64,000 bases of DNA from Herbaspirillum frisingense GSF30. GTDB taxonomy: Bacteria > Pseudomonadota > Gammaproteobacteria > Burkholderiales > Burkholderiaceae_D. The position numbers were made by a program, and so were the translations under genes. The stretch lies in assembly GCF_000300975.2 (NCBI RefSeq), contig NZ_AEEC02000013.1, positions 62,001-126,000 on the forward strand, read 5' to 3'. The notes under the pieces were generated by a model. The model had not been told where the DNA came from. It was given only the letters and a program-made list of their open reading frames with translations, and did no database searches. This document shows positions 22,508 to 32,300 of the stretch, piece after piece; positions within the stretch are counted from its first letter, which is position 1; every line of letters begins with the position of its first letter.

Positions 22508-25024
<2,517 letters not shown>

Positions 25025-25055
25025 TGTCGTCAGTAGATAGCTACATAATCTGAGA

Positions 25056-25096
25056 AAAAGAGGGCCCATATATGAGAAATATATGGGCCCTCTTTT
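25056..25096. terminator. Bidirectional terminator between gyrB and the SNF2 gene
   Basis: A perfect 18-bp stem AAAAGAGGGCCCATATAT with a 5-nt loop and the matching arm ending TTTT on both strands. It can end both gyrB (rightward) and the island operon (leftward), and marks the left border of the accessory region. Confidence 0.9.
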
Positions 25097-25166
25097 CTTA
25101 ATTCCGATGCCTCATGGACAAATTACGCGATTCCTTACGTAACGGATCAAGAGATCGTATTCCAGT

Positions 25167-26963
25167 TTAACTATCCTGGGGAAGGGCGCTTAGCAGTGCG
25201 AGAGTCTCGTCTAGCATGGTGGTACGTATCAGAGGCCGATCAACAATATCACCCAGCAATGATTGCGCCGACTGTTCTTTGCGCAAGAGACGTTGATATT
25301 CGACTTCCTCAATAGAGTTTTCACATATAAGTACGATGTACTCAACAGGGCGTTGCTGTCCACGTCTATGTATTCGATCTAAACTCTGTAGATAGTGTGC
25401 GGCTTGATTGGACATCGACTCATAGATCGCAAAGCGAGCGCTATGTAGAGTAAGGCCAGCACCTGCAGCAGCAGGGTTTGCAATAAACAATTTCGTATTT
25501 GGATCTTGTTGAAACCGTGACACAGCAGACTGTCTATCTTCGACAGATGATACAGCTCCATCGTAGCGAACAGCCCCATACCTTTCATATCGTTTCATCA
25601 GGAGGTCAATAGTTCGCGTGTAAAACGACCAAAGTACGACCTTCTCATTCTGGACGACGATTAATCGCTCAAGAATATCGTCCAATGCCTGCACCTTAGC
25701 TGGGGTGGCATCATAACGTTCTGTTGCTGCCGCCGGATTCGAGCATATCTGAAGAAGCATCGAGCGCTGGCTAAGGAAGTTAGTAATGGTTCGCTTAAAC
25801 TCTATGTCGGATGTCGCTTGGATTTGCTGCACTAAGGCCGCTAGCGCAGCTCGATAGAGTTCTGCCTGCTTGGCCTCCATTTTTACAAGGACTTGCTGAA
25901 AAGACTTCGTTGGCAAGCCAGGTAAAACATCTGCTTTTAAATTTCGTAGATAAAGACCACGTGTCTCGATGGTGGTTTGAACGATAGGAAGCGCAGCTTC
26001 CCGATCATCTGGGATATCTATGCCATTAAATGCAAGACCAAAATCAACGAAGCTGATTTGCTGCACAAGATCAATCGGAGAGTTTGGTGCAGGCGTGCCA
26101 CACAGAACGTAGGCTCGACCGCACCATTCTCGGAGACGACGTAACGTAAGAGTACGGCGAGCATCGGCTGACTTGATAAAGAATGACTCGTCTACAACGA
26201 TAATGGCTCGACCTTCAAATGATCTTAGAAATGCCTCCAGTTCTCGCTCAAGAGAGACTGCCGTCTCGAAGTTTGTAATTACTACATCAGGCCTCTGATT
26301 TAACGTTTCAGCCTTCTTTCTCACGCTACCTTCGGCCACCGATACACGGTACGTATCATCCATAAATCGGTGCAAGTCCTTGGGCCATTCTCCGACCATA
26401 CTTTTTGGAGCAACGATGAGCATGAAATCTACTTCGTTTCGATGTACTAATTCATCGTAGGTATAAATCATGCTCACGGTTTTTCCTGCCCCCTGCTCAT
26501 CAAACAAGCAAAGACCTGGTCCCGTAGCAAGAGTCATTGCCGCCACATTCTTCAATTGATGTTCGTCCAAGACTTCAAATCGACCATCGTCGTTTAAAAG
26601 TCGAGCGACGATACTTCTGTCACCGTCGCGCACGGCAGCCACTTGGGAAACTAGGGCCTCATATTTTTGCTTTAGCTTGTACCTATTTTTTATGTACTGC
26701 TTTGCATCTCCGGACCACTTGAAGGCGCTACTTTTAAACTTCCAAAGTTTTTCAGCGGCGGGGAGCGATAGCGCCACGCCTTGCGCAGTTCTCCGAATAT
26801 CTTCATCAGGAAAGATCCGTTTTAACGTCGTCAGAAAAAAATGCGGATCGACATGACGGTAAGGCACAAGATAAAGAGAACTGAGATCGGCGGCCCGAAC
26901 CACATCCGCAATAACTGCGCCCTCCAATATAGTTGGTTGCATTTTTTTGATTGCGCTATCCAT
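25167..26963 (-). CDS. SNF2-family DNA helicase/translocase
   Basis: A 598-residue superfamily 2 ATPase from the ATG at 26963, 4 bp after the stop of the ParB-domain gene. Motif I is DEQGAGKTVSMIY (Lys about 161), motif II DESFFIKSADARRTLTLRRL (where SNF2 proteins more often have DE[AS]H), and motif VI LQSLDRIHRRGQQRPVEYIV (the SNF2 hallmark RIHRxGQ). The first 130 residues resemble no domain I can name. SNF2 ATPases without nuclease domains move along or remodel DNA-protein complexes. The gene is AT-rich against its host and last in the island operon. Confidence 0.88.
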   Translation of the reverse strand: MDSAIKKMQPTILEGAVIADVVRAADLSSLYLVPYRHVDPHFFLTTLKRIFPDEDIRRTAQGVALSLPAAEKLWKFKSSAFKWSGDAKQYIKNRYKLKQKYEALVSQVAAVRDGDRSIVARLLNDDGRFEVLDEHQLKNVAAMTLATGPGLCLFDEQGAGKTVSMIYTYDELVHRNEVDFMLIVAPKSMVGEWPKDLHRFMDDTYRVSVAEGSVRKKAETLNQRPDVVITNFETAVSLERELEAFLRSFEGRAIIVVDESFFIKSADARRTLTLRRLREWCGRAYVLCGTPAPNSPIDLVQQISFVDFGLAFNGIDIPDDREAALPIVQTTIETRGLYLRNLKADVLPGLPTKSFQQVLVKMEAKQAELYRAALAALVQQIQATSDIEFKRTITNFLSQRSMLLQICSNPAAATERYDATPAKVQALDDILERLIVVQNEKVVLWSFYTRTIDLLMKRYERYGAVRYDGAVSSVEDRQSAVSRFQQDPNTKLFIANPAAAGAGLTLHSARFAIYESMSNQAAHYLQSLDRIHRRGQQRPVEYIVLICENSIEEVEYQRLLRKEQSAQSLLGDIVDRPLIRTTMLDETLALLSALPQDS

Positions 26964-26967
26964 AGAT

Positions 26968-28500
26968 TTATTGATAGGTGCTATCTGTGGAACTATTGCG
27001 ATCCATGATATCCGTAACAAACTTTAGGGCATCGTGCAGATCTTTAACATTCGCTGGACTAATTTGGTTGGGATCTTGAAAGATACCAACAGGGAGCTCG
27101 AGTAGCCATTTCACGAACACCTCAATGCGAGCGTTTTTTCCTATTTGCCGTTGTTCGGCCTGTTTGGCTTTTCCCAGTGCGATCGCGCGATCTACATTGT
27201 CCTGGATCTCTTCTCTTTTCTCGACGCTTGTTATTTCAATCTCTGCCTGCTCATGAAGCGCATCAATAGCGACCTGGTTGTCCATGATGTAAATGAGGTC
27301 ACGAATTTGGCGCCAATTTTTGAATTTCCCGGCATACAGAAGTTCGAATACGAGATGCTTGAAAGTTGGGTTTCGTCCCAGCTCATATCCTAATTTTCCG
27401 GAAGAAACGCCTTTTGTAAGCTCATCAAAGTACTGGAAGTATTGAGCCGCCTTATGCTTGACTTCGTACTTGTCACGTCGTTTTTCAATGATGTGATAAT
27501 CCTCGAATTCGGTCGCGCTAGTGACCATTCGGATGTAGCGTGTGACGACGGAGACATCAGATCCGAGCGCAAATTTTTTAGAGATATCACGCCGAATTTG
27601 TAGCTGACGACTTGATCCAGCTGTTGGGTCAAGAGCCAAAGCAGATTCCCATTCCAGATGAACCTTTCTCGCCTTCACGTATTCAGGCCACTCCTGTTTG
27701 TGATCATTTTCAAAATTTAAAGAAACAATGATTGCTTGTTCGTCATCTTCGTCTGAATGCTCGGTGAGCCTCCAAACTAAAATATATTCGACGCGCTTTT
27801 TCTGCTCGATTGTGAATTCATCACTGGTGAGAATGTAGTAGCAGGCAGCCAAGCGCCGATTTCCATCCAAAAGTCTGCCGTTGAAAGAAAGAATTGGATA
27901 TTTTCGGAGGCCATTCGCCGCGATACTTCTGGCCAATGCGGGAATGCCGAATTGATCTTCCTCCGTAACGCCATCGAGCTTCAAATGGCAGAACATGATG
28001 TCAAGAAGCTCTTGCGGAGAAGGTTTACGGCCATATTTTTTGGCGAACTGCTGAAGATGAATCTCGATACGCTCGTTCGAATCCCAAAGATCAATATCTT
28101 TAGTTCTTACAAAGCCTTCCGTCAGCGCTACTTCGCGCATATGGAATGTGGGAGTGGGTTTGACAGGATGTGGAGATATTCCCTTGTGTTCCACCATTTC
28201 AATCGGATTATTACCTACTTGTAGATCTCTGGAATTCAACTCGCGCACCTTAATCAATTCATCGGCCAATGATGAAAGTTGCTCTACAACCTGAGACTTA
28301 TGGTCGCCAGAATCCAGCTTGCGTTGAATCGCATTAATAACCTTGTCAATGAGCTTGCGTATTTCTACCGAGTTAAGCAATTCGCTATCTTCTTCTTGGA
28401 AAATCAAGTCGATTTCCGTTCCAACGTCTGCTGAAATCTCATGCGCCCGTTCGATTAAACGAGTGAATTCACGATTCAGTTCTTCAGTAATCTTTTCCAT
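26968..28500 (-). CDS. ParB/Srx-fold domain protein
   Basis: A 510-residue protein. Residues 183-220 (FGIPALARSIAANGLRKYPI then LSFNGRLLDGNRRLAAC) form a ParB-type domain with the DGNRR box, a fold that can bind CTP/ATP or act as a nuclease in other families. The first 90 residues look helical and charged. The middle has a possible helix-turn-helix (SSRQLQIRRDISKKFALGSD) and the C-terminus is helical and Lys/Glu-rich. It is not a chromosomal ParB: order, size and context differ. The gene starts 23 bp after the sigma-like gene ends and is followed at once by SNF2. Confidence 0.8.
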   Translation of the reverse strand: MEKITEELNREFTRLIERAHEISADVGTEIDLIFQEEDSELLNSVEIRKLIDKVINAIQRKLDSGDHKSQVVEQLSSLADELIKVRELNSRDLQVGNNPIEMVEHKGISPHPVKPTPTFHMREVALTEGFVRTKDIDLWDSNERIEIHLQQFAKKYGRKPSPQELLDIMFCHLKLDGVTEEDQFGIPALARSIAANGLRKYPILSFNGRLLDGNRRLAACYYILTSDEFTIEQKKRVEYILVWRLTEHSDEDDEQAIIVSLNFENDHKQEWPEYVKARKVHLEWESALALDPTAGSSRQLQIRRDISKKFALGSDVSVVTRYIRMVTSATEFEDYHIIEKRRDKYEVKHKAAQYFQYFDELTKGVSSGKLGYELGRNPTFKHLVFELLYAGKFKNWRQIRDLIYIMDNQVAIDALHEQAEIEITSVEKREEIQDNVDRAIALGKAKQAEQRQIGKNARIEVFVKWLLELPVGIFQDPNQISPANVKDLHDALKFVTDIMDRNSSTDSTYQ

Positions 28501-28523
28501 TTTTCTTTTCCCTATCGTATTGG

Positions 28524-29183
28524 TTATAGTGAATCATCTTCGTCAGCAACCTGATATTGCTCAAAGTGATATCCCGCAGCTTCTGCAAGTTTGGTGAGTC
28601 GTTCAATTGCACGATTTTTCAATCGTCGAACTGTGTCTTCTTTCAAGTCGGTTATTTCAGCTATCTGGCGATCTGTGATGTCAGGTATTCCTTTCTCGAT
28701 AGCATCTAAGAGGACGTCCATTACCCGACGGATGTTTTCCTGCCCTATTTGAGGTAGGAGTTGGCGCGCTTGTGCTAACGCTCTCTGCCTCAATGTATCC
28801 CTCATATGATTTTCAACCTGTGATTTCGAGCTTGAAGGTGCTTCTATTCTCTCCTCAGCTCCAGGCAGAAATGGGAGTGGCTTATCTGCCGCAAGATCGC
28901 TTGCGAGATTCTTTGTTGCTTTAAGAAGATATGAATGCAACGAATTAATGTTGCGCCCTTGGCGTAAAGCCTCAAATGCACCAGAAACGGCTTCCGCTAG
29001 ACAGTCATCAACTTCTTCGGAGGATAAGGCTCCAAAATATTGCTTTCGGACAAAATGTGCCAATTTGTCCATGAGAGAACTTTCGAAGAGGTGTTTAACC
29101 ATTCCAGCGGCATTGCCCGCTCGGCCAGCTTCTTTTGCGAGTCTTTGTTCCGCATCGATTTTTTCTTTATCTGCTAGCGCCAT
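28524..29183 (-). CDS. Sigma-70-like (ECF-type) protein
   Basis: A 219-residue protein. Residues about 50-110 (VRKQYFGALSSEEVDDCLAE through SLHSYLLKATKNLASDLAAD) resemble sigma region 2. Residues 167-200 (DITDRQIAEITDLKEDTVRR then LKNRAIERL) form a region 4-type helix-turn-helix. The linker is long and the C-terminus acidic. It may be a true alternative sigma factor or a sigma-derived DNA-binding subunit. It precedes the ParB-domain and SNF2 genes in one operon, which is unusual company for a sigma factor. Confidence 0.7.
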   Translation of the reverse strand: MALADKEKIDAEQRLAKEAGRAGNAAGMVKHLFESSLMDKLAHFVRKQYFGALSSEEVDDCLAEAVSGAFEALRQGRNINSLHSYLLKATKNLASDLAADKPLPFLPGAEERIEAPSSSKSQVENHMRDTLRQRALAQARQLLPQIGQENIRRVMDVLLDAIEKGIPDITDRQIAEITDLKEDTVRRLKNRAIERLTKLAEAAGYHFEQYQVADEDDSL

Positions 29184-29219
29184 CCTCTTTCCTTTTGAGC
29201 ATTTCTTGTGCTCCCTATC

Positions 29220-29375
29220 CTAGAGTCTCTGGCTGGGACAGGCATTACTCTCGACGGCTTCTTTGCAGGAGCTCGTCTTAGCCCGCGATCTTTTAGTGGT
29301 ACGGTATTTCGGTATCCAGTCCGTACAGGAGAGTCTGCATTTGGGACAGGATATGGGTGCTAAATCCATGGTCAT
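29220..29375 (-). CDS. Small cysteine-containing protein (possible zinc-binding)
   Basis: A 51-residue frame from the ATG at 29375, which has AGGAAA in front. The frame could begin with GTG at 29423, but without a ribosome site. It starts MTMDLAPISCPKCRLSCTDW and has further Cys residues (SSCKEAV, NACPSQ). The CPKC pair suggests half a zinc ribbon. It lies between the methyltransferase terminator and the sigma-like gene (36 bp away) and would be the first gene of that operon. It could also be a decayed remnant. Confidence 0.45.
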   Translation of the reverse strand: MTMDLAPISCPKCRLSCTDWIPKYRTTKRSRAKTSSCKEAVESNACPSQRL

Positions 29376-29431
29376 CTGAAATTTCCTATCTGGCAATCTA
29401 TGCAACTTTGTTTTCTGACACACAAGTACAA

Positions 29432-29468
29432 ATAAAAACGCCAGGCATCAATGCCTGGGGCGTTTTTG
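29432..29468 (-). terminator. Rho-independent terminator of the methyltransferase gene
   Basis: On the minus strand CCAGGCAT-TG-ATGCCTGG inside outer arms AAAAACG/CGTTTTT, followed by ATTTG. It separates the methyltransferase pair from the sigma-ParB-SNF2 operon. Confidence 0.8.
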
Positions 29469-29511
29469 TTTATCTTGACTAAATGTTAAGCGCTACAAGA
29501 AAAGCGATGAA

Positions 29512-30822
29512 TCATGCTGCCTTGGTGACTTGAGTTGTCGCAGAGTATTGCGTGGAGTCAGAGCGTTTTTTGAGACGCGACTGATCCCATTCAGTAGAGT
29601 TCTCATTTCCATTCTTTTTCCGCATCGAAGGTGGATTAAGCATGGTGACGGGTCTAGAAGCCATCCGCCTGACAAGGTCTTCATTGTGCGTTTCTACAGT
29701 ACCTAGTTGCGCAAGCCCATTTCTACGATTCCATGCATCAAGGATGGCCATCCCTAACGCTTGACCTAAACCGGTAGGTACGGCATTGCCAATCTGACGG
29801 TATTGGCTAGATATAGATCCAGAAAACTTCCAATCATCAGGGAATTGCTGAATTCGCGCATATTCTCGAACGCTCAAGGGGCGCAATTCGGTAGGGTGGC
29901 ATAGCATCGTAGCCTTGGCGTTGGGTGTCGTAGGCAGTGCTGGGCTAGGCTTGTCCCAGCTTAATCTGCGGAAGAAACCGCTGCGCCCTCCCCATGAGTG
30001 ATACGCACCGCCCAATGCTTCCTTTTGATCTGCTTCCGGAAGATCTCGCCAGTTGCCACCTTCTGGGATCATCTTTAGATATTTCTCTTGCGATGCAATT
30101 AACTTGGCTCCGGGTGAATCGATTTCGCTAAATCGCCCGATTGCACTTCTCAAGCTAGCCCATTTCTTCTGATGCTTCTTTGGATGCTCAGCATGAGTTG
30201 GCTTCGGTAAAGTAATGCGCTTTCCGTCGCGAGAACCGATAAAAATTATTCTCTCTCTTGACTGGGGCGTGCCGAAGTCGGCCGCATTCAATACGTCAAA
30301 GGCGGTGTAGTAATTTAGACGTCTGAGTTCGGTCACGATCACTCTGAAAGCAGATCCCAGTTCTTCTTCCGCTTCCAGCGGCGGGAAGCCTGGCCCTCTC
30401 TCGTTAAGAGGACGGTGCTTTATCGCGGCCGAAAGCATCCCCTTCACGTTCTCCATAAGGAAGAACTTGGGCCGCGTTTCCTCCACCACTCGCATGAAAT
30501 GGCGGAACAGGCCGCCTCTAGGGTCACCGAGGGATCGACGAGCTCCTGCAGTGCTAAAAGATTGGCAGCTTGGTCCGCCGGAAACCACAAAGGCTCCGCC
30601 AGCTTTTAGTCCGGCCTTCTTGAGCATCTCGGCGGTAGAAACGTCTTCAATTTTGCTTTTGATGACCGGAAGGCTTGGTCTATTAGCTTTAATTGTAGCG
30701 ACCGCCTGTTCATCGCATTCAACAGCAAGTACAACCTCGAATCCAGCAGCTTCTAGGCCAAGATCGAGCCCCATTGCGCCAGAAAATAAAGATATGACGG
30801 GTATCTTCTTTGGCATCTTCAT
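29512..30822 (-). CDS. DNA cytosine-C5 methyltransferase (Dcm family)
   Basis: A 436-residue enzyme transferring a methyl group from SAM to C5 of cytosine in a DNA target. Motif I is PVISLFSGAMGLDLGLEAAG. Motif IV is VSGGPSCQSFS with catalytic Cys86 (Ser replaces the second Pro of PPCQ). Motif VI is MENVKGM, motif VIII around RERIIFIGSR, and motifs IX-X include YARIQQFPDDW and YRQIGNAVPTGLGQALG. The target-recognition part lies about residues 230-320. A C-terminal tail of about 80 residues is polar. No restriction endonuclease gene is adjacent. The start overlaps the zinc-ribbon stop (ATGA) and has AAAGGAAC before it. Confidence 0.93.
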   Translation of the reverse strand: MKMPKKIPVISLFSGAMGLDLGLEAAGFEVVLAVECDEQAVATIKANRPSLPVIKSKIEDVSTAEMLKKAGLKAGGAFVVSGGPSCQSFSTAGARRSLGDPRGGLFRHFMRVVEETRPKFFLMENVKGMLSAAIKHRPLNERGPGFPPLEAEEELGSAFRVIVTELRRLNYYTAFDVLNAADFGTPQSRERIIFIGSRDGKRITLPKPTHAEHPKKHQKKWASLRSAIGRFSEIDSPGAKLIASQEKYLKMIPEGGNWRDLPEADQKEALGGAYHSWGGRSGFFRRLSWDKPSPALPTTPNAKATMLCHPTELRPLSVREYARIQQFPDDWKFSGSISSQYRQIGNAVPTGLGQALGMAILDAWNRRNGLAQLGTVETHNEDLVRRMASRPVTMLNPPSMRKKNGNENSTEWDQSRLKKRSDSTQYSATTQVTKAA

Positions 30823-31001
30823 TGTTCCTTTGACGACTTTGTTTCCTGATTCTTACTGTCTCTACGTCGAGGAGTATCCCAATATGGACTTTTGCAATGA
30901 GGGCAAACCTTCGGCAACGTGGACGAGCGACGAACCCAGGTATGTTCGCATCGGCAGCAGCGTAGGCCAGGTAAAAGCACTTCAAAAGGATTCGCGGGCA
31001 T
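30819..31001 (-). CDS. Small zinc-ribbon protein
   Basis: A 60-residue protein from the ATG at 31001, with a possible TTG start at 31016. The ribbon is LRCCRCEHTWVRRSSTLPKV then CPHCKSPYWDTPRR: two CxxC knuckles 18 residues apart, a pattern common in small phage- and defence-associated proteins. It overlaps the methyltransferase start by 4 nt, so the two are translated together. Its role is unknown; it may bind nucleic acid or serve as a methyltransferase accessory. Confidence 0.72.
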   Translation of the reverse strand: MPANPFEVLLPGLRCCRCEHTWVRRSSTLPKVCPHCKSPYWDTPRRRDSKNQETKSSKEQ

Positions 31002-31030
31002 AGGTGTAGGTGGCAAAGCAATTTTCTGAC

Positions 31031-31060
31031 ACTATAACCGCGAAAATAAAATATTACCAA
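31031..31060 (-). promoter_or_regulatory. Putative promoter of the zinc-ribbon/methyltransferase genes
   Basis: On the minus strand TTGGTA (31060-31055) and TATAGT (31036-31031) with an 18-bp spacer, giving a short leader of about 23 nt. Confidence 0.5.
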
Positions 31061-31457
31061 ACATCAAATTTAAATATATTCTCTTAATTATAATAAATAA
31101 AAAATATTGTTTTAAACATGTGTTTATTAAAATATTTTTATTGATATATAAATATAAATATATACCTATTAGGAAGTGTTTGCGATCTCTACAGCCGCTA
31201 GGTCTGCAAACCTTTAATCGGAAAGTCCAGAGCCGCGGCCTTTGAACAGCGAGCAAATGGACGAGCGGTTTAGATCTCTGGTTCGAGACATATCAGCTTC
31301 CGATAGACCTAAAAGGATATGAATGGGACTTCGGCAACGCCTCACCTAAATTGCTGAAAGAACAATCGTCATTCAGATCTAAGAACTCTGTTCATCCCAG
31401 CTCGTGCATCGTTGAGAGCATGATGTTCTTCAAGTTTATTCTGACCTGCTTATCGCC
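31061..31457. other. AT-rich island leader and gene debris
   Basis: 31061-31180 is extremely AT-rich (runs such as TAATTATAATAAATAAAAAA) and clearly foreign to the host composition. 31190-31457 has no intact gene. A short fragment with an exonuclease-like tail is described separately, and a rightward frame ending near 31461 (GYEWDFGNASPKLLKEQ) has no known relative I can name. Confidence 0.6.
31369..31443 (-). pseudogene. Fragment resembling the C-terminus of a 3'-5' exonuclease
   Basis: A 24-residue frame ending in a stop reads QNKLEEHHALNDARAGMNRV then LRSE. HHALNDA is the pattern of the last conserved motif (HxAxxD) of DnaQ-like exonucleases. No upstream part of such a gene is left, so this would be a decayed remnant. 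The stretch is short and the call tentative. Confidence 0.3.
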
Positions 31458-31910
31458 CTAGTCCGACCAGCGGCCGCACAGCAGCTCTTCCGTCCTGCGC
31501 TCGACCTGCCTGCCCACTATTTCGGCACCTGGCCGCTGGTCTTCCAGGCCCATGGTGTGGGCGACGCCAGCCACTTCTTCCCGGGCGATCGCGCGGGCCT
31601 GTTCCTGCACGACCTCAGTGAGAGGGCGGCGCGGAACCAGAGCGTACACCAGCTCGCAGTCCAGCCCGTCGGCAAGCTTGCGAAGTTGCCCGAGCGTGAT
31701 GCGCTCGTCGGCCTCGGATTGTTCGGACTTGTGCAGGGTCGGTCCGGAAATGCCAAGCCGCTGCGCCTGTTGGCGTTGGGTACGACCTAATGCTTCGCGG
31801 ATAAGCTTCAGCCATCCTCGAGGCGGGACCTGGCGTTTGGCCAGATCCGCGTACGCGGATAGCTTGGCTTGCAACTGCTCAAGGCGAAGCTGGTTCAGTT
31901 CAGGTGACAT
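31458..31910 (-). CDS. Mobile mystery protein A (XRE-type DNA-binding protein)
   Basis: A 150-residue protein from the ATG at 31910, beginning MSPELNQLRLEQLQAKLSAY. The helix-turn-helix is WLKLIREALGRTQRQQAQRL then GISGPTLHKSEQSEADERIT (residues 33-72), followed by LRKLADGLDCELVYALVPRR. This is the mobile mystery protein A pattern, normally paired with mobile mystery protein B, a Fic-domain protein, directly downstream. Here no Fic gene follows, so the regulator is an orphan. GC content is nearer the host than the methyltransferase block, implying separate acquisition. Confidence 0.8.
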   Translation of the reverse strand: MSPELNQLRLEQLQAKLSAYADLAKRQVPPRGWLKLIREALGRTQRQQAQRLGISGPTLHKSEQSEADERITLGQLRKLADGLDCELVYALVPRRPLTEVVQEQARAIAREEVAGVAHTMGLEDQRPGAEIVGRQVERRTEELLCGRWSD

Positions 31911-31963
31911 TGCTAGCCTATAAGCTACTGAGATGACCATTAATGATAGCTGATAGGCTAGCA
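31911..31963. promoter_or_regulatory. Long inverted-repeat operator of mobile mystery protein A
   Basis: TGCTAGCCTATAAGCTA (31911-31927) and TAGCTGATAGGCTAGCA (31947-31963) are 17-bp arms with one mismatch, 19 bp apart. They begin directly next to the start codon, so binding by the protein would block its own promoter. Confidence 0.7.
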
Positions 31964-32300
31964 AGTGGAAATTTTATGCTTCCGTTTAAGGCAGCTAAAA
32001 CTGTAGATTTGCTTCCGTTTGATGAAGCAATTGTCTGGCCGTGGAGACCACATCGGGCCTGTACCTTCCCCGCTGATGGCTAGAAACAAGAATCCGGTCT
32101 GAGCAGGGCAAATCAGCCCCCTTCTCTTCACACAAAATCTCACATCCTCACGCAAAACACCAATTACATCGCCGATTTCCCACCCATTGCGCACAGCTGT
32201 GCCATCCCGCCACACCCCACCCCCTCCCCGCCCCACAAAATCTTGCACATCCCCTGATGCTTGCATACCATCGAATCTCACTTCGATCACACCGCCCTGT
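31964..32300. other. Intergenic region at the right edge of the island
   Basis: 337 bp without a supported gene. TGCTTCCGTTT occurs twice (31978 and 32011 areas). A 35-codon rightward frame from 31976 is too short to support. The last 100 bp return to host-like GC. Confidence 0.5.

Follow-up and report, generated by a model that had tools for sequence, protein, structure and literature searches.

We analysed a window of 64,000 nucleotides (nt) of Herbaspirillum frisingense GSF30 (contig NZ_AEEC02000013.1, positions 62,001 to 126,000; coordinates below are those of the window), in which a block of minus-strand genes next to gyrB links a C5-cytosine DNA methyltransferase with an operon for a sigma-like protein, a ParB-fold protein and an SNF2-family ATPase. 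The block was found in eight phyla and is probably (at about 0.7) an unnamed and undescribed multi-gene defence system of the restriction-modification type, and our confidence in the activity of the window copy is lower than that in this general reading. In their order on the minus strand the elements are:

30819-31001, minus strand: small zinc-ribbon-like protein (CxxC), the end of its gene overlapping the start of the methyltransferase gene by 4 nt
29512-30822, minus strand: C5-cytosine DNA methyltransferase of the Dcm type, 436 amino acids (aa) (Pfam DNA_methylase PF00145, 217 bits)
29441-29458, no strand: bidirectional terminator-like hairpin between the methyltransferase unit and the sigma-ParB-SNF2 unit (from a hairpin scan that as a whole was not above shuffles)
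28524-29183, minus strand: sigma-70/ECF-like protein with regions 2 and 4, 219 aa (TIGR02937, PDB matches)
26968-28500, minus strand: ParB-fold protein, 510 aa (AlphaFold2 model, structure matches, 18-sequence alignment)
25167-26963, minus strand: short SNF2-family ATPase, about 598 aa (Pfam SNF2-rel_dom, 91 bits, and Helicase_C)

A preliminary description of this DNA had named these open reading frames (ORFs) with their order, strand and motifs, among them the Dcm-type methyltransferase with its overlapping zinc-ribbon gene, the sigma-70-like protein and the SNF2 translocase, and the profile matches agree with it in all but one small ORF, which is treated below. It had also assigned the 510-aa protein to ParB from a DGNRR box. 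This protein was not recognised by Pfam, NCBIfam, PHROGs or PADLOC, and the assignment is now supported by its predicted structure (pLDDT 83.5), the leading matches of which are the ParB-family proteins ParB, KorB, Noc and PadC (VIA-align Z 8-9.8). A helical bundle (residues 1-99) is followed by an NTP-binding domain (about 110-267), a helix-turn-helix region (about 270-445) and a C-terminal helix, and a pNOB8-like ParB aligned over residues 121-444, a span that takes in the NTP-binding and helix-turn-helix parts alike. The known roles of ParB proteins are in chromosome segregation and silencing. Two stretches are conserved in the alignment of 18 sequences, DGNRR (212-216) and SLNFExDxK (260-268), and we take their positions to correspond to the known nucleotide motifs of ParB. 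Passages of a survey of the ParB fold report that it binds CTP, ATP or GTP with a preference unpredictable from sequence, and that fusions of ParB with sigma70 exist; these passages do not mention the present operon (PMC12704722).

The sigma-like protein of the window scored 40.6 bits (E=2e-10) against TIGR02937 (sigma70-ECF), just under the cut-off of 42.9, all 17 sigma-like members that were scanned matched the same profile, and the family profile led to the PDB structures of SigW, SigE and SigH. The SNF2 protein carries a Walker A motif (DEQGAGKT) and a DESF box that are conserved across its relatives, with 17 of which it shares 47-59% identity. In the methyltransferase, the catalytic Cys86 lies in GGPSCQ, Cys86 and the ENV motif are conserved, and the protein is 53-58% identical to 14 methyltransferases of the system across phyla.

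Recurrence and co-divergence of the block

Profiles placed the sigma-like, ParB and SNF2 genes next to each other and in that order at 18 of 18 distinct loci, that is, the window and 17 others (L005 equals L010 and was counted once). Gaps between these core genes range from overlaps to 30 nt, some of the large overlaps being due to extended ORF starts. Moreover, all four large genes stand together at most of the 17 other loci, and thus the block is not a product of chance; the grouping suspected from the window holds in other genomes. The hosts of the 15 loci in species genomes belong to Burkholderiales, Alpha- and Gammaproteobacteria, Planctomycetota, Cyanobacteria, Actinobacteria, Chloroflexota, Acidobacteriota, Binatia and Neobacillus. 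The proteins have also diverged together: pairwise identities of the ParB, SNF2, sigma-like, methyltransferase and candidate nuclease proteins (the last is described below) correlate over the loci with r=0.63-0.92, and at most 2 of 5000 permutations gave values as high. For the methyltransferase the correlation was r=0.82 with ParB and r=0.84 with SNF2, which none of 5000 permutations reached, and r=0.92 with the nuclease. The nearest relative, L007, has 55% identity in ParB and 59% in SNF2, and its nuclease gene is kept.

Relatives were reached through the SNF2 protein and not through the single ParB sequence: searches of plasmids, phages and viral contigs with the latter gave no match, and in the class and order samples (369 and 399 genomes) only the window's own copy appeared. 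The SNF2 query led to two contigs of a viral database (52-53% identity), both with the same operon, and an alignment of three ParB proteins then led to 15 loci in species genomes. The block is rare, since a profile search of 398 genomes of the phylum gave one clear copy, that of the window, plus three weak or partial matches. A divergent partial relative of ParB was seen at L023 (G983:C200:21757-22368; 66.8 bits over positions 111-312), and an ORF on the opposite strand of this short stretch resembles, by eye, a type II restriction enzyme.

Putative repair companions, candidate nuclease and a rhizobial relative

An orthologous methyltransferase of one clade lies near the core at 15 of the 18 loci, either immediately upstream of it or on the other strand; at L007 the contig end cuts the locus. 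Another methyltransferase, near L021, adjoins an EcoO109I-type nuclease and was not counted as a member of the system. Conservation of the target-recognition core (246-300) is 65% compared with 63-65% for the catalytic motifs, and this equal conservation predicts one fixed target site for the methyltransferase across the eight phyla.

At 7 of the 15 methyltransferase loci an endonuclease-III-type glycosylase stands by the methyltransferase, and in four of these the two are fused in single ORFs:

L015, 6978-9185: methyltransferase-glycosylase fusion
L017, 7237-9207: methyltransferase-glycosylase fusion
L018, 7087-9069: methyltransferase-glycosylase fusion
L019, 13233-15311: methyltransferase-glycosylase fusion

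At L016 a Vsr nuclease takes the place of the glycosylase, so that one enzyme or the other accompanies the methyltransferase at 8 of 15 loci; furthermore, the L007 contig begins with the end of a glycosylase gene. Profile matches of the glycosylase include endonuclease III, the plant 5-methylcytosine (5mC) glycosylase ROS1 and the G-T mismatch enzyme 1kea. Vsr and Mig.Mth are established means of handling the T:G mismatches that arise from deaminated 5mC. Because non-homologous T:G mismatch enzymes occupy the same place, we infer by analogy that these companions repair deaminated 5mC, and a 5mC-repair enzyme in many copies would make the link of the block to modification stronger.

The preliminary description had seen no obvious nuclease, except possibly the ParB-fold protein. 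The window copy has no separate nuclease gene, but in the family a small gene follows SNF2 at 13 of 18 loci and usually overlaps it. In the alignment of its products PD is invariant, (E/D)xK is conserved and helix 1 has an HE. The elements of the modelled protein run alpha-beta-beta-beta-alpha-beta; D50 falls at strand 2, and strand 3 bears E65/K67. As judged from alignment and model, this is the layout of PD-(D/E)XK nucleases, and the gene is a candidate nuclease.

The closest SNF2 outside the family is encoded on rhizobial plasmids, beside a ParB-fold protein (E=0.0018) and a small protein with PD...GEAK that is homologous to the family's candidate nuclease (hhalign E=6.6e-5). Genes for DndB, radical SAM and GHKL proteins come next, and the trio was seen again in Rhizobium, Mesorhizobium and Roseomonas. 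The cluster (ParB-N, PD-(D/E)XK-motif, SNF2, ParB-N, DndB/DGQHR, radical SAM, GHKL) was located at:

L063, 4499-12764: Rhizobium sophoriradicis pCC511_1
L064, 6037-14283: Roseomonas mucosa p2-AD3
L062: Bradyrhizobium p187_1

Hence a small PD-(D/E)XK-motif protein, SNF2 and a ParB-fold protein are neighbours as in the family, whereas no C5 methyltransferase or sigma-like gene is annotated and the DndB/DGQHR, radical SAM and GHKL genes stand instead. We found no published description of this cluster, and it may represent an undescribed system of its own that is linked to modification. Because the trio recurs with other partners on rhizobial plasmids, nuclease, SNF2 and ParB appear to form a portable module whose partner genes vary.

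The island downstream of gyrB

The block lies in an island of low GC content, which confirms the AT-rich stretch adjoining gyrB that had been noted before (44-51% GC in the island versus 59-67% outside):

about 25096-32123, no strand: low-GC island, inserted after gyrB (composition and blastn against relatives)

gyrB ends at 25024, a region with a GGDEF/EAL-type gene lies on the other side, and about 70 nt separate the SNF2 stop codon from the island end. By blastn against the same genus the edges fall at about 25095/25096 and 32123/32124; in G1132/L038 the left match stops at 25095 and the right match restarts at 32124. The flanks of the island are alike in relatives of the genus and the interior is unlike. 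Sister species carry unrelated cargo in the place after gyrB (window 25025-32187; L038-L049), and because this cargo includes Gabija-like, type I, type II and methyltransferase-plus-Vsr genes, the place is a defence-rich variable site, a hotspot in the genus. Near the far edge lies a gene for mobile mystery protein A (31461-31964; TIGR02612, 131 bits), with an 18-nt inverted repeat at its start (31910-31964), and no partner gene B was seen in the island. Between gyrB and SNF2 (25056-25096) a perfect inverted repeat of 18 nt runs into T-rich sequence, and because it is common to sister species it is probably the gyrB terminator. In the slot of the zinc-ribbon ORF some other loci also have a small ORF, with a ribbon-helix-helix (Pfam) in L020 only; the search gave no useful plasmid relatives of the zinc-ribbon protein.

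The exception to the earlier gene list is a small cysteine protein placed in the operon, which overlaps a pair of direct repeats that precede the sigma-like gene:

29220-29423, minus strand: ORF of the small cysteine protein, probably not a gene (no relative at other loci; overlaps repeats)
29222-29242, minus strand: direct repeat, copy nearer the sigma-like gene, reads CCTGTCCCAGCCAGAGACTCT (shared with L007)
29330-29350, minus strand: direct repeat, distal copy, CCTGTCCCAAATGCAGACTCT (repeat scan versus shuffles)

No homologue of this ORF was found at the other loci and no convincing match in Pfam, PADLOC, NCBIfam or PHROGs, and the repeat that overlaps it is non-coding DNA in L007; thus the ORF is probably spurious. 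A relation to the C-terminus of the glycosylase, as its remnant, was considered and its score was not significant. The window repeat pair is not significant on its own against shuffles, and one copy matches L007 at 28 of 34 nt. Direct repeats that differ from locus to locus, spaced by about 50-110 nt and just upstream of the sigma-like gene, were seen in the window, L003, L018, L019 and L021, and in the latter four they are above shuffles. Such repeats are a possible operator, promoter or loading site, and as a hint of promoter use by the sigma-like protein they are only suggestive. An upstream motif common to all loci (expectation maximisation, 200 bits versus 174-191 in shuffles) was too weak to claim, and k-mers common to the upstream regions were at or near shuffle level.

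Proposed mechanism and alternative readings

The preliminary description had modelled methylation as a mark of self DNA, with the SNF2 and ParB proteins acting on unmarked DNA. This is still the best reading, although the family usually has a separate nuclease and the small cysteine protein drops out. The methyltransferase would mark host DNA by methylating cytosine at a single fixed target, and the glycosylase or Vsr, where present, would repair the T:G mismatches left by 5mC deamination. The operon of sigma-like, ParB-fold and SNF2 proteins, with the small PD-(D/E)XK protein where there is one, would act on unmarked DNA. Binding of DNA would fall to the ParB-fold protein, probably together with its sigma-like partner, and would be controlled by a nucleotide (CTP or ATP); the SNF2 ATPase may move along or remodel DNA, and the small nuclease may cut what is unmarked. 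The loci themselves show conserved gene order, co-divergence, folds and motifs, the repair partner, and nuclease, SNF2 and ParB with another partner module in rhizobia, whereas nucleotide use, target recognition, cleavage and the defence role are inferred. Without the nuclease, the window copy may block DNA uncut, borrow a nuclease, or be decaying. A more specific version, which we put forward tentatively and at somewhat less than even odds, is that a ParB-family nucleotide-gated clamp and its sigma-like partner read methylation at one site and load the SNF2 motor and the small nuclease onto foreign DNA, with nuclease, SNF2 and ParB being portable and also coupled to the uncharacterised DndB/radical-SAM module.

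Several results speak against restriction-modification. A fold search with the nuclease model gave only weak and mixed matches. The nuclease gene is missing from the copy in the window and from four further loci (in Nitrospirillum, Iningainema, Pyrinomonadaceae and Neobacillus), and whole-genome searches, which recovered it in positive-control genomes, found none. L009 and L021 have no methyltransferase of the system clade near the core, and none was evident elsewhere in their genomes. Finally, we know of no obvious role in restriction for a sigma-like protein. Some of this would fit a silencing or maintenance complex of mobile islands, in which the sigma-like, ParB and SNF2 proteins act in the manner of KorB or other regulators derived from ParB and the methyltransferase is part of an epigenetic switch. 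Passages of PMC11790492 describe KorB-type ParB clamps as acting in long-range silencing, all sigma-like copies resemble ECF sigma factors, integrase- or recombinase-like ORFs were seen by eye near some copies, and the repeats above shuffles at four loci and the five loci without nuclease point the same way. Such a complex is nevertheless unlikely, given a nuclease-motif gene that mostly overlaps SNF2, a deamination-repair gene tied to the methyltransferase, and the methyltransferase-nuclease co-divergence. For the window copy only, and compatibly with restriction-modification for the family, it is somewhat less likely than not that we see a decayed remnant which lost its nuclease and repair genes on landing by gyrB, the rest being selected, if at all, only for methylation. 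The window island has neither a nuclease nor a repair gene, the nuclease was not found elsewhere in the window genome, L007 keeps the nuclease and the glycosylase end, and the island ends shortly past SNF2; on the other hand, the four large ORFs are intact with their conserved motifs, and nuclease-less copies recur. Because of these last two observations the activity of the window copy cannot be dismissed.

It is very improbable that the block is a divergent member of DISARM, Dnd/Ssp, Dpd, Zorya or BREX. At family level SNF2 resembles ZorD, DpdE and DrmD, and DrmMII and DruM are similar to the methyltransferase, but generic ATPase and methyltransferase matches are expected in such large families; the partner genes that define these systems are absent from the island, and with PADLOC the ParB protein had no match and the sigma-like protein no noteworthy one. 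A PADLOC scan of seven island proteins returned only generic DrmD/DrmMII-type matches, and no profile library (Pfam, PADLOC, NCBIfam, PHROGs) assigns the genes to a named system. The likeness to DISARM (class 2) that had been remarked upon comes down to two generic components, the 5mC methyltransferase and the SNF2-type ATPase; DrmA, DrmB and DrmC are missing from the island, as had been stated, and ParB and sigma-like proteins are not parts of DISARM. Dnd/Ssp and GmrSD (DndB, SspE, DUF262) likewise have a ParB/Srx-superfamily protein in modification-linked defence, whereas the present protein has the canonical ParB layout of N domain plus helix-turn-helix and, again as described before, the island has no Dnd/Ssp genes (DndACDE and SspABCD by PADLOC and NCBIfam). 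ZorAB and DpdA were not found in the island, where NCBIfam ZorD scored 57.6 bits against a cut-off of 1500. With type II restriction-modification that includes Vsr or Mig.Mth-type repair, the block shares a C5 methyltransferase, a T:G repair companion and a nuclease gene, and it differs in adding a ParB-fold protein, an SNF2 motor and a sigma-like protein; the island itself has the catalytic C5 methyltransferase and no adjacent cognate endonuclease. Compared with the ParB/Noc/KorB/VirB clamps, the fold, DGNRR box and helix-turn-helix region are alike, but no ParA/parS context was seen, the gene stands in an operon with SNF2 and nuclease, and the protein has an extra N-terminal helical domain. 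Text searches of open-access papers and PADLOC of 2023 gave no prior description of the block, and a later or paywalled one is possible.

The conserved recognition region leads to a prediction of a single methylation site that is directly testable, and the rhizobial cluster hints at a possible further DNA modification. The nuclease-less copies raise the question of whether a complex of ParB and SNF2 could block DNA in the absence of cleavage. If the proposed reading is true, a ParB clamp central to restriction would be a new way to tell self from foreign DNA.

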